The notes under the pieces are model-generated. The model was not told the origin of the DNA and made no database searches. It saw only the letters and a list, made by a program, of their open reading frames with translations. Source: an uncultured Flavobacteriales bacterium (GTDB lineage Bacteria; Bacteroidota; Bacteroidia; Flavobacteriales_D; Parvicellaceae). Taken from it: DNA of 64,000 bases. Each line of letters starts with the position of its first letter. Within the stretch, counting starts at the first letter, position 1. Below, piece after piece: positions 432 to 3,817 of the stretch. The position numbers and the translations under genes were made by a program. Location: assembly GCA_943788755.1 (NCBI GenBank), contig CALSRM010000003.1, positions 1,860,001-1,924,000 of the forward strand, read 5' to 3'.

Positions 432-1529
432 CTATTGTTGTGTATCTTTAATAGGTTTACTCAGTAAACGGTTTTGTGTATTAATTGAATTTTGATGAAT
501 AGCATGGAAAACTTTCGAAATTAGTTTGGGTTCTAATGAGAGTTTTTCTGCCTGCTTTTGATGCTTTGCAAGCAACGAACTCCATCTGTTCTTTTGAAAA
601 ACAGTCATGCCATTGTTTAATTTGAATTGAGCAATGTCTTTTATTACATGCGATCTGTAACTTAATAAATCAATGATTTGTTCATCTATAAAGTTGATTG
701 ATTTTCTAAGTTCATCGATACTTTTTAATTCAATTCCCTCTGGTGTTTCAGCTCGCACGATTAAACGGTCCAGAATGTTGGTCAGCTGCTCAGGGGTAAC
801 TTGTTGTGCTGGATCACTCCATGCTTTATCGGGTTCGAAATGTGATTCTATCATTAGTCCATCAAAGTTTAGATCCATTGCAGTTTGCGATATTTTATGA
901 ATTAACTCGCGATTTCCACTAATATGACTCGGGTCATTAATTATGAGAATGTCAGGTAGTTGTTCTCTTAATTCAATAACCATTTGCCACTCTGGATTGT
1001 TTCGGAAAGATGATTTTTCGAATTGTGATACACCTCGGTGTACTGCTCCAATTCGAGTGATTCCAGCTTTACTTAACCTTTCAATTGCTCCTATCCATAA
1101 TGCTACATCTGGGTTCACAGGGTTTTTAACCAATACAGGAATGTCAACACCTTTTAGGGCGTCTGCAATTTCTTGAACTGCAAATGGATTAGCTGTTGTT
1201 CTAGCGCCAATCCAGAGTATGTCAATTCCTGCTTTTAACGCTTCGTAAACATGTTTTAAATTCGCAACCTCGATCGCTACAGGCATTCCTAGTTCGTTCT
1301 TTACACGCTGTAACCAAGGAAGACCAATGCTTCCAACTCCTTCAAAACTTCCTGGTTTTGTTCTAGGTTTCCAGATTCCGGCCCTGTAAATCTTTACGCG
1401 ATTATCACTTTTTAATTCCTTAGCAGTTTGCATTACTTGTTTTTCAGTTTCAGCGCTGCATGGTCCCGCAATAATTAATGGCTCATTTTTTTTTAGTTGT
1501 GGCCAGGCTTCAGTTTTAATTAACATCAC
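432..1529 (-). CDS. Bifunctional 3-deoxy-7-phosphoheptulonate synthase / chorismate mutase
   Basis: This 365-residue protein should catalyse both the first step of the shikimate pathway (PEP plus erythrose-4-phosphate) and chorismate to prephenate. Residues 1 to about 265 form a short KDO8P-synthase-like (type I beta) DAHP synthase barrel with IIAGPCS at 19-25, then RAGIWKPRT and GAVHRG. Residues about 268-350 form an AroQ-type chorismate mutase helix bundle with IDEQIIDLLSYR. This fusion is standard in Bacteroidota. It is the last gene of the leftward pheA operon and starts 3 bases after the aminotransferase stop. A second Met follows the first directly, so the start is uncertain by one codon. 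Control probably comes from the attenuators upstream of pheA. Confidence 0.93.
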   Translation of the reverse strand: MMLIKTEAWPQLKKNEPLIIAGPCSAETEKQVMQTAKELKSDNRVKIYRAGIWKPRTKPGSFEGVGSIGLPWLQRVKNELGMPVAIEVANLKHVYEALKAGIDILWIGARTTANPFAVQEIADALKGVDIPVLVKNPVNPDVALWIGAIERLSKAGITRIGAVHRGVSQFEKSSFRNNPEWQMVIELREQLPDILIINDPSHISGNRELIHKISQTAMDLNFDGLMIESHFEPDKAWSDPAQQVTPEQLTNILDRLIVRAETPEGIELKSIDELRKSINFIDEQIIDLLSYRSHVIKDIAQFKLNNGMTVFQKNRWSSLLAKHQKQAEKLSLEPKLISKVFHAIHQNSINTQNRLLSKPIKDTQQ

Positions 1530-1532
1530 TTT

Positions 1533-2687
1533 TTATTTTAAATTATTTATTCTAATCAATGCTTCTCGCAAAATCTCTGTTGTGTTACATAATGAAACAC
1601 GGATGAACTTATTTCCACTTGAGCCAAATATGAATCCTGGAGTGATAAATACTTTTGCGTTATAAAGAATTTCATTTATCCAAATTTCGGCACTATCAAA
1701 TTTATCAGGTATGCTTGCCCATACAAATAAACCAACGTTATCCTTTGAGTAAGAACAATCCAATTTGTCTAAAATTTCCCAGACTACTTTTCTTCTTTCA
1801 GAATAGGTAAAATTGAGTTGTTCAATCCAATCTTTAGAAACATTTAAGGCACTGATTGCAGCTTTTTGAATAGGAAGGAACATTCCAGAGTCCATATTGC
1901 TTTTTACCTTCAATATGGATTGAATTAATTCTGTTTTTCCAGTAACCCAACCAATCCTCCAGCCAGACATATTATGTGATTTACTCAATGAGTTGAGTTC
2001 AAGACAGTTTTCTTTCGCCCCATCAATCTGAAATATACTGAAGTAGTCATCGGTCAAAAGCGTGCTGTAAGGATTGTCGTTAATAACAATACATCCATTT
2101 TTATTTGCCAATGCTATCAATTCCGTTATTGCTTTTTTGTTCGCAGGAGTACCTGTCGGCATATGTGGATAATTTAACCAAAGAACCTTTGTGTTTCCGC
2201 TTAATAAACTGGACAACTCGTCCAAATCAAAGCTTCCATCTGATTTGATTGAATATTCAACAACAATTGCTTGAGCTAAATTTGAAACCGACCGATAAGT
2301 AGGATATCCCAGCATAGGAACGAGTACTTTGTCACCTTTATTAACGAAGGCTTGCGTAATATGGTGAATACCTTCTTTGGACCCCATTAACGGCAATATT
2401 TCATTATCTGCATTAAGGTCTACGTCATAAACTTTTTTGCTCCATTCTTTTATAGCCAATCGAAATTCAGGAATGCCATTATATCGCTGATAACCATGAA
2501 CGTTATTTTGGGTTGACCATGTTGTCAGTTTATTTATAACTACTTTGGGTGGTTCCAAGTCTGGACTTCCAATTCCTAAATTGATCACTTGAATACCGTT
2601 TCGATTGATTTCATTTATTTCCCTCAGTTTTTTAGAGAAGTAATATTCAGAAACGTTATTTAACCTATTTGCTTCAACAATTTTCAT
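1533..2687 (-). CDS. PLP-dependent class I/II aminotransferase of the aromatic operon
   Basis: This 384-residue fold-type I aminotransferase carries the PLP lysine in SLSKSHNMSGWRIGW (Lys about 236) and NDNPYSTL in the Asp/Tyr cofactor region. Its position between pheA and the DAHP synthase suggests it transaminates phenylpyruvate, hydroxyphenylpyruvate or prephenate, but the sequence alone does not fix the substrate. At 171-179 the usual NYPHNPTG motif reads NYPHMPTG, so the conserved Asn that contacts cofactor and substrate carboxylate is Met 176. Its start overlaps the pheA stop by 4 bases (ATGA type), which suggests translational coupling. Confidence 0.9.
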   Translation of the reverse strand: MKIVEANRLNNVSEYYFSKKLREINEINRNGIQVINLGIGSPDLEPPKVVINKLTTWSTQNNVHGYQRYNGIPEFRLAIKEWSKKVYDVDLNADNEILPLMGSKEGIHHITQAFVNKGDKVLVPMLGYPTYRSVSNLAQAIVVEYSIKSDGSFDLDELSSLLSGNTKVLWLNYPHMPTGTPANKKAITELIALANKNGCIVINDNPYSTLLTDDYFSIFQIDGAKENCLELNSLSKSHNMSGWRIGWVTGKTELIQSILKVKSNMDSGMFLPIQKAAISALNVSKDWIEQLNFTYSERRKVVWEILDKLDCSYSKDNVGLFVWASIPDKFDSAEIWINEILYNAKVFITPGFIFGSSGNKFIRVSLCNTTEILREALIRINNLK

Positions 2688-3517
2688 GCGTAATCGATTT
2701 TTCCAGGATGGTATTTCCCTAATATTTTTAATTCAATTGTCAACGGCGTAAGCGCCTCAATTGTATTTTGATAACTAACTTTTTCATGAAGAATAAAATC
2801 TAAAAAAAATCTGTATTGAAAAGGTTTTCCAATCACTGGAGCAGATTCAATCTTGGTTAGATTTACACCCAATAAATGAAGTAAGGAAATTGCTTTTGAT
2901 AATGCACCTGAAACGTTAGAGAGAATAATAGATAAACTTACTTTTGCTCCATCGGTAGAGGCGTCGATGTGTTTTCCTAAAACGGCAAATCGTGTGTAGT
3001 TACTTTTATCTGTTTCGATACCTTTAGCTAATAATTCCAATCCATATTCTTCAATTGCAAGTTTACTTCCAATGGCAGCAATTTGCAGGTTATCTTGTTC
3101 TGAAACTTCTTTTAGGCTTAAAGCGGTGTCTGCCGATTCAACTAATTTAACACTAGGATGGTTTTTAAAAAAAGCTCTGCATTGATTGAGTGCCATGTAA
3201 TGAGAACTAACTTCAGTTAATTTATTAATAGTTGCTCCTTTTAACGCGCCTAGGTTTTGTTCAATCCGTAGATAAGTTTCACCAATAATTGCTAAATCAT
3301 TATTCCGAATGAGTTCTAAATTTTGAAGAATTGTACCAGATATTGTATTTTCAATTGCCATTAGTGCATAATCTACTTCCTCGTTTACCACTTTGGTGGT
3401 TAATTCTTGAAATGTAATAGAAGGTGAAATATTAATATCATTCCCAAATACGTTTTTTGCTGCCTCTTCATGAAAAGCACCTTTAATTCCTTGTATTGCA
3501 ATCGTTTTTATTGTCAT
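2684..3517 (-). CDS. pheA: Prephenate dehydratase
   Basis: This 277-residue monofunctional enzyme converts prephenate to phenylpyruvate. The catalytic dehydratase domain (about 1-185) has ENTISGT at 56-62 and the signature Thr-Arg-Phe at 175-177. An ACT domain follows (about 193-275), with a motif like the usual ESRP Phe-binding site but reading ESAP, so allosteric sensitivity may differ. Chorismate mutase is absent here and is instead fused to the DAHP synthase two genes downstream. This is the first gene of the leftward operon; its ATG lies 14 bases after the second attenuator hairpin. Confidence 0.94.
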   Translation of the reverse strand: MTIKTIAIQGIKGAFHEEAAKNVFGNDINISPSITFQELTTKVVNEEVDYALMAIENTISGTILQNLELIRNNDLAIIGETYLRIEQNLGALKGATINKLTEVSSHYMALNQCRAFFKNHPSVKLVESADTALSLKEVSEQDNLQIAAIGSKLAIEEYGLELLAKGIETDKSNYTRFAVLGKHIDASTDGAKVSLSIILSNVSGALSKAISLLHLLGVNLTKIESAPVIGKPFQYRFFLDFILHEKVSYQNTIEALTPLTIELKILGKYHPGKIDYA

Positions 3518-3531
3518 AATTATTTTAATAA

Positions 3532-3566
3532 TAAAAGAAGCCTTCTGGTTTACAAGGCTTCTTTTA
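3532..3566 (-). terminator. Second attenuator terminator, directly before pheA
   Basis: A perfect 12-bp stem (arms 3533-3544 and 3554-3565, extended by one A-T pair) with a 9-base loop. On the minus strand the stem ends in CTTTTATTATT, resembling an intrinsic terminator. It ends 14 bases before the pheA start codon, so if formed it would stop transcription into the operon. Its core (GCCTT-N2-AAACC-N2-AAGGC) matches that of the upstream hairpin, which suggests a duplicated unit. Confidence 0.8.
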
Positions 3567-3587
3567 TATTAATTACATTAATATCCT

Positions 3588-3644
3588 TCATTCCATTTTC
3601 ATAAAATAGGAGTGATAGCGGTATGTAAAAGTAGTCTTATTCAT
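3588..3644 (-). CDS. Second aromatic-rich leader peptide (18 aa)
   Basis: The reading frame encodes MNKTTFTYRYHSYFMKME. Five of nine consecutive codons (FTYRYHSYF) are Phe or Tyr. It starts 11 bases past the first terminator's T-run and stops 22 bases before the second terminator stem. This is the classic layout of a ribosome-mediated attenuator leader for aromatic amino acids. Translation is inferred from codon content and position, and there is no Shine-Dalgarno sequence, as expected in this phylum. Confidence 0.75.
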   Translation of the reverse strand: MNKTTFTYRYHSYFMKME

Positions 3645-3654
3645 TGTGTTTATT

Positions 3655-3688
3655 TATCAAAAAAAGCCTTCCGGTTTGGAAGGCTTTT
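3655..3688 (-). terminator. First attenuator terminator
   Basis: A perfect 11-bp stem, AAAAGCCTTCC against GGAAGGCTTTT (3662-3672 and 3678-3688), with a 5-base loop and seven T residues on the minus strand. The word GGAAAGGCTTT inside leader peptide 1 and AAGCC just after its stop can both pair with the terminator arms, giving possible antiterminator structures. Confidence 0.82.
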
Positions 3689-3719
3689 CAATTATGTAAT
3701 CGATAAAACGTTTCCGGCT

Positions 3720-3767
3720 TCAGTAATTGAAATAAAGCCTTTCCGTATATATTGTAAACTTTTTCAT
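3720..3767 (-). CDS. First aromatic-rich leader peptide (15 aa)
   Basis: The reading frame encodes MKKFTIYTERLYFNY and then stops. Five of 15 residues are Phe or Tyr, four of them in the second half. Its ATG lies about 13 bases after the predicted transcription start of the operon, and its stop lies about 30 bases before the first terminator stem. It should act as the first sensor of charged tRNA-Phe/tRNA-Tyr for the pheA operon. Confidence 0.78.
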   Translation of the reverse strand: MKKFTIYTERLYFNY

Positions 3768-3785
3768 TTTCTTGTTTTCGATGAA

Positions 3786-3817
3786 CAAATGTATGAAATA
3801 TAATTAATGAGCTACAA
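3786..3817 (-). promoter_or_regulatory. Promoter of the pheA aromatic operon
   Basis: The minus strand has TTG, 21 bases, TACATTTG (3786-3793), a full match to the Bacteroidota consensus TTG-N17-23-TAnnTTTG. The predicted start near 3780 leaves a very short untranslated stretch before leader peptide 1, as expected for an attenuation leader. Confidence 0.72.

Follow-up and report, generated by a model that had tools for sequence, protein, structure and literature searches.

Leader-peptide attenuation is textbook knowledge for trp, his and pheA of E. coli, and T-boxes are known to bind tRNA directly. Nearer to the present case, pheA is preceded by a structured 5′ element in Flavobacterium psychrophilum and other Flavobacteriaceae, with clues of leader-peptide attenuation before amino-acid operons, according to the part of that study drawn on here (PMC9723704), and short ORFs resembling leader peptides have been reported in B. 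thetaiotaomicron (PMC7366714). Serial arrangements have also been described. The double T-boxes of Firmicutes are pairs of antitermination elements set in series ahead of amino-acid genes (PMC9413887), and Salmonella mgtCBR has tandem ORF-coupled attenuators, mgtM and mgtP, which answer to the signals ATP and proline and act additively, an arrangement that the authors call 'singular' (PMC3641672). What, then, is to be made of a pheA operon preceded by two leader peptides that are rich in the same aromatic residues? We think it quite probable that this operon, made up of pheA, an aminotransferase gene and a DAHP synthase/chorismate mutase gene, is under the control of two complete ribosome-mediated attenuators of transcription, arranged in series.

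The window, the whole 64,000-nucleotide stretch that was analysed, comes from an uncultured Flavobacteriales bacterium, and all of the features described here lie on its minus strand. On domain evidence, pheA (2684..3517, ATG at 3517) encodes a prephenate dehydratase (PDT plus a weak ACT). Its stop is overlapped by the next gene, for a class I/II aminotransferase (1533..2687), which is followed by the gene for a DAHP synthase fused to chorismate mutase (CM_2; 432..1529). A peptidase M1 gene on the same strand is the upstream neighbour of the double leader, with pheA on the other side. Read along the minus strand from 3793 to 3533, the order is promoter-like site, leader 1, terminator 1, leader 2, terminator 2, and then pheA. 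The putative Bacteroidota-type -7 box, TACATTTG (3786..3793), fits TAnnTTTG, the -7 consensus for F. psychrophilum in the part of PMC9723704 used here, and a putative -33 element, TTG (3815..3817), lies 21 nt upstream of it and is kept upstream of pheA in congeners. This was the sole -7-type box spotted when the leader region was inspected by eye, and since only one promoter-like box lies upstream, both modules should share a single transcript, which would then carry two ORF-coupled attenuators. The 286-nt leader RNA folds at -64.8 kcal/mol (ViennaRNA; z = -6.9 against shuffles). An Rfam scan of the window gave no match, and the pheA leader does not fit the T-box model.

The original prediction, that two leader/terminator modules precede pheA, proved accurate to a base or two. 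Leader peptide 1, MKKFTIYTERLYFNY plus stop (3720..3767; ATG at 3767, stop at 3720), is conserved in the three congeners and has 15 codons, of which 2 are Phe and 3 Tyr (5/15 aromatic). Sequence and folding agree on intrinsic terminator 1 (3659..3688), whose 11-bp stem, AAAAGCCTTCC/GGAAGGCTTTT with loop AAACC, runs from 3688 to 3662, with seven T at 3665-3659. When truncated RNA was folded with the ribosome edge moved along it, an antiterminator was predicted at 3678..3715, pairing GGAA (3715-3712) with UUCC (3681-3678), GUUUU (3709-3705) with AAAGC (3687-3683) and UCGAUU (3703-3698) with AAUUGA (3693-3688), so that the GGAA..UUCC helix and the inner stem engage the terminator 5′ arm. Its 15 pairs are paired in 98% of cells over four species, with no covariation. 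In the window genome (G000) the strongest single complement sits within the leader; this complement, AAGGCUUU, was dropped as the main antiterminator of module 1, being lost in two congeners (G001 and G003). In G000 and G002, GGCUUUA (3739-3733) can pair with UGAAGCC (3722-3716) as a candidate 1:2 pause hairpin, which is weaker in the other congeners.

Module 2 begins after a 14-nt linker, GATAAATAAACACA (3645..3658), which forms the leader 2 start region and is invariant in three species. Leader peptide 2, MNKTTFTYRYHSYFMKME plus stop (3588..3644; ATG at 3644, stop at 3588), has 18 codons, again with 2 Phe and 3 Tyr (5/18 aromatic), and is conserved in G001 and G002 and absent from G003. Intrinsic terminator 2 (3533..3565, from sequence and folding) has a 12-bp stem, AAAAGAAGCCTT/AAGGCTTCTTTT, a 9-nt loop and the tail ATTATT; its T tract is interrupted in the window strain (TTTTATTATT), and it ends 15 nt before the pheA ATG, rather than the 14 first given. 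The antiterminator that folding predicts here (3554..3588) is joined to the terminator by only 4 bp, AAGG (3588-3585) with CCUU (3557-3554), plus a helper stem, AUAUUAAU (3584-3577) with AUUAAUAU (3573-3566), and its complementarity alone is no better than in shuffles in G000 (p 0.66). No pause (1:2) hairpin is evident in module 2. An ATG that overlaps the leader 2 stop (ATGA) opens a 13-codon frame, MKDINVINIKEAL (window 3591-3550), which crosses antiterminator 2 and the terminator 5′ arm and differs in length in G001.

Each module thus has an aromatic-rich leader ORF with an intrinsic terminator between leader and gene. Both terminators were recovered by a purpose-made terminator detector and by ViennaRNA; a simple promoter/terminator consensus tool listed neither, the 9-nt loop of terminator 2 exceeding its limits. 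Under a strict rule (ATG start, at least four F/Y/W, at least 22% aromatic residues and a terminator within 70 nt), the leader and terminator detector returned two modules at the window locus.

We compared the window genome with three congeners, G001, G002 and G003, whose PheA proteins are 93-95% identical. Both modules are kept in two of the three, so that the arrangement is complete in three species counting G000, and the leaders have drifted yet stay aromatic (MNKFTIYTERFYFNY / MGNITFTCIYRLYFIKIK in G001, MKKFTKYVERFYFRY / MNKTTFTYNYHLYFMKTK in G002). The stop-to-terminator spacers, in which the predicted antiterminators lie, are 87% (module 1) and 91% (module 2) invariant among the three species, compared with 69% for the promoter flank and 70-83% for the leaders. 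The alignment of orthologs that had been proposed as a check therefore bore out both leaders in two of three congeners and gave no covariation within the genus, the stems hardly varying among the four species. In G003 (L004), leader 1 and a single terminator stand straight before pheA; leader 2 and one terminator are cleanly absent (window equivalent 3530-3660), and the tail of the lone terminator joins what is the pheA start region of the other congeners. The junction falls in the similar 3′ arms and T tracts (GGCTT...TTTT) of both terminators. Since leader 1 hardly differs among the four species and leader 2 is very unlike it, the loss of a module in G003 is a likelier history than its late gain by the others.

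Does the position of the ribosome decide between antiterminator and terminator? A model ribosome edge was stepped along each leader, with the RNA folded as it would be before the terminator 3′ arm emerges. In module 1 the mean pairing of the arm was 0.89 as long as the edge had not passed the late leader, and fell to 0.25 with the ribosome at the stop; in module 2 it was 0.36 (4 of 11 positions, which is the fully formed state) and fell to 0.03. In this folding model, then, a ribosome stalled at most of the aromatic codons would leave the arm of either module free, and one at the stop would cover it, as the suggestion to look for alternative pairings had anticipated. A competing antiterminator, available during a stall and hidden once the stop is reached, is predicted for each module, weakly for module 2 taken alone. 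G041, from another family, folds with the same layout from unrelated sequences. Over 180 modules, pairing of the arm (best 4 nt) dropped from 0.99 with the ribosome stalled at the middle aromatic codon to 0.39 with it at the stop, against 0.88 and 0.50 when spacers were shuffled (Wilcoxon p 4e-14). Thermodynamics alone favours the terminator nearly always in these folds, so the switch must be kinetic.

A geometric test that dispenses with folding points the same way. The best complement to the terminator 5′ arm was significant in 107 of the 180 modules, and in these the arm starts a median of +13 nt (IQR 11-15) past the cluster's last aromatic codon, between +6 and +23 in 99 of them. The distance to the stop codon is variable (IQR 15.5), and shuffling gives a flat distribution. 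A ribosome with a codon in its A site is expected from toeprints to cover mRNA to about +13. The arm start thus matches the front edge of a ribosome at the last aromatic codon, which suggests that the arms are placed by where a starved ribosome stops. The folded arms of the window start at +10 (module 1) and +17 (module 2). We regard this 107-module ruler as strong sequence evidence for ribosome-mediated attenuation, and with the conserved leaders and spacers and a candidate antiterminator in each module it gives good support to the mode of control first proposed for these aromatic leaders. Alignment folds of two groups of single loci (f50, 16 loci; f63, 14 loci) gave covariation in 4/13 and 6/9 terminator pairs; the antiterminator was not found in these alignments, which started at the stop codon, because the arms there fall in the leader's last codons. 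At many such loci (L164 and L206, for example) the arm seems to overlap these codons (...SRD against terminator GUCCCGGC), so that the C terminus of the peptide would change with terminator sequence.

We infer the following course of events. In each module a ribosome would translate the Phe/Tyr-rich leader close behind RNA polymerase. With ample Phe-tRNA and Tyr-tRNA it would reach the stop and cover the 5′ arm of the antiterminator, the terminator would form, and transcription would end. Were either charged tRNA short, the ribosome would stall on an aromatic codon with its front edge just before the arm, and the uncovered arm would pair with the terminator 5′ arm and let polymerase continue. 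Polymerase would have to pass both gates to reach pheA, and their read-through probabilities would multiply, giving less basal leak and a steeper response. Two gates that answer to the same signal and multiply repression are the best and simplest reading, and the doubled attenuator is apparently a means of tighter shut-off of the operon.

One might think that composition alone could produce such a leader, as TTT and TAT codons are common in AT-rich DNA, which would yield aromatic-rich short frames and hairpins by chance. But two modules appeared in none of 705 shuffled pheA upstream regions and one module in only five, and given the conservation and the ruler as well, chance is extremely improbable. 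That the second hairpin acts mainly on pheA translation, not transcription, is suggested by its place 15 nt before the start codon and by hairpins near the start codon at many single loci too. T-rich tails, the widely varying distance between terminator and ATG at other loci and a stem that leaves the ATG uncovered make this improbable. Perhaps, instead, only one gate works, its partner being a relic or a redundant spare with no measurable effect? That one gate can suffice is shown by G003, where leader 2 and one terminator are missing; about 90% of attenuated pheA loci have a single module, and the T tract of terminator 2 is broken in the window strain. Against this, both leaders, spacers and terminators are conserved in G000 to G002, the spacer of leader 2 no less than that of leader 1, both arms lie at the ruler distance, and tandem loci persist across a wide PheA clade, so that we hold an idle second gate to be unlikely.

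The two gates might also sense different cues, one mainly Phe and the other mainly Tyr, or one of them general translation speed as well, and so form a logic gate like that of Salmonella. The two-signal precedent of mgtCBR (PMC3641672) and an operon that can feed Phe and, via a hydroxylase, Tyr speak for it, whereas both window leaders have 2 Phe and 3 Tyr codons and no consistent division appears over 16 tandem loci; we judge it distinctly unlikely. The simplest form of the idea, one Phe leader and one Tyr leader, is rejected on codon counts at those loci, and both window leaders are mixed and alike in codon make-up. Since each of these has both kinds of codon, shortage of either amino acid should open a gate, and the early suggestion that low levels of both are required is not supported. 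Its companion, that both Phe and Tyr are sensed, is plausible. Prephenate dehydrogenase was not found in the four genomes of the genus, where PDH_N matches are short and weak, and the one in G000, a candidate tyrA, turned out to be pyrroline-5-carboxylate reductase. A biopterin-dependent aromatic amino-acid hydroxylase is present in the genus, its frame doubtful in some of the four genomes. Phe and Tyr may therefore both derive from the pheA operon, a physiology that fits a joint signal. The hydroxylase gene adjoins a second DAHP synthase-like gene (L325, G000:C4 18.5-20.5 kb; L324, G003:C10; L327, G001:C176); its frame has a stop in G001, a frameshift in G003 and an altered C terminus in G000, from decay or assembly error.

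How general is the preferred arrangement, two same-signal gates in series? We gathered 236 distinct pheA loci, nearly all from Bacteroidota, and applied the strict rule to 235. At least one aromatic leader with a terminator precedes pheA in 164 of the 235, and two modules do so in 16; all 11 additional pheA loci in a phylum sample have a single module. Residues of the surveyed leaders are 22.6% Phe and 16.6% Tyr (39% together). By analogous rules, a His leader precedes hisG in 20 of 30 loci and a Trp leader precedes trpE in 16 of 18, always singly; no tandem modules were seen in these small samples. Attenuation thus looks like the norm in Bacteroidota, with doubling seen only at pheA. The belief that the double version is unusual was right as to proportion (16/164 attenuated loci), although the arrangement recurs across the phylum. 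The window genome itself has a single His leader, MNLKKLHHHHFYNCSQASGK, before hisG (L323, G000:C1:516800-518600) and a single Trp leader, MKNLKSNNYWWSAKHNVSQIG, before trpE (L301, G000:C4:26696-27112), which suggests that this genome makes use of leader attenuation. In the order to which the window belongs, only 52 of 395 genomes gave a prephenate dehydratase match, whereas a phylum-wide draw gave 341 of 396; either Phe auxotrophy is frequent in the order, or the search was limited at its first look. A contig binned as Lentisphaerae (L073) has a Bacteroidota-like pheA behind an aromatic leader of its own, MTALRYYGTSYAFRFSG, by transfer or by binning error.

What evolutionary steps gave rise to the tandem loci? 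A branch of the PheA tree with support of 98 unites 15 rows from several families and orders and holds 10 of the 16 tandem loci (from the window genus, G041, G180, G188, G667, Salinivirgaceae, Ancylomarina and Pontibacter) as well as G003. The tandem state requires 8 changes on the tree, against 13-16 with shuffled labels. PheA proteins from the window's family do not form a single clade (AU p about 2e-63), so the gene must have passed from one family to another, seemingly together with its leader. Some metagenome contigs may have been misbinned, though the window itself sits on a contig of 1.95 Mb. About five further origins are likely, since the remaining tandem loci (Chitinophaga, two Saprospiraceae-like, a Bacteroidales and G504) are placed among single ones. 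A shared hairpin core had been taken to suggest duplication. Duplication is possible, but it is not demonstrable from sequence similarity: that between modules of a locus is only slightly above that across loci (p 0.04), and the core, AAAGCCTT, is common in unrelated attenuators. We suggest tentatively, with somewhat more doubt than confidence, that the same-signal double attenuator is a recurrent pheA circuit, which moves from family to family along with its gene as a ready-made steep switch, has had several further independent origins, and can revert to one gate by recombination between its two terminators.

How does this locus stand beside the known systems? As in E. coli trp, his and pheA, a short leader rich in end-product codons is followed by a choice, predicted to be set by ribosome position, between antiterminator and Rho-independent terminator; unlike them, it has two complete units in series with Phe and Tyr codons mixed, the arm lies where the leader ends or just past it, and a 1:2 pause hairpin with clear conservation did not emerge. 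Related predictions may be contained in the comparative-genomics work on attenuation by Lopatovskaya, Seliverstov and Lyubetsky. In the literature searched, which took in few subscription journals, we found no description of same-signal tandem leader-peptide attenuators. Bacteroidota mostly initiate translation without Shine-Dalgarno sites, and coupling there is little studied; the +13-nt ruler offers phylum-wide sequence evidence that ribosome position steers transcription termination in these bacteria. Sister species, moreover, provide natural one-gate and two-gate forms of one regulator, so that the benefit of a second identical attenuator, be it lower leak, a steeper response or nothing, is directly measurable. 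The F. psychrophilum element shares gene and phylum with the present one, and the part of that paper used here does not describe a tandem arrangement (PMC9723704). Like the double T-boxes, the leader places antitermination elements in series before amino-acid genes, with the difference that the sensor would be a translating ribosome. Like mgtCBR, it has two short ORFs in one leader, each within an attenuator; unlike mgtCBR, both would read the same aromatic amino acids, and before a biosynthetic operon. Flavobacterial pheA attenuation and tandem attenuators with different signals were thus already known, and what is added here is a conserved, same-signal double form, real as an arrangement and putative in function.
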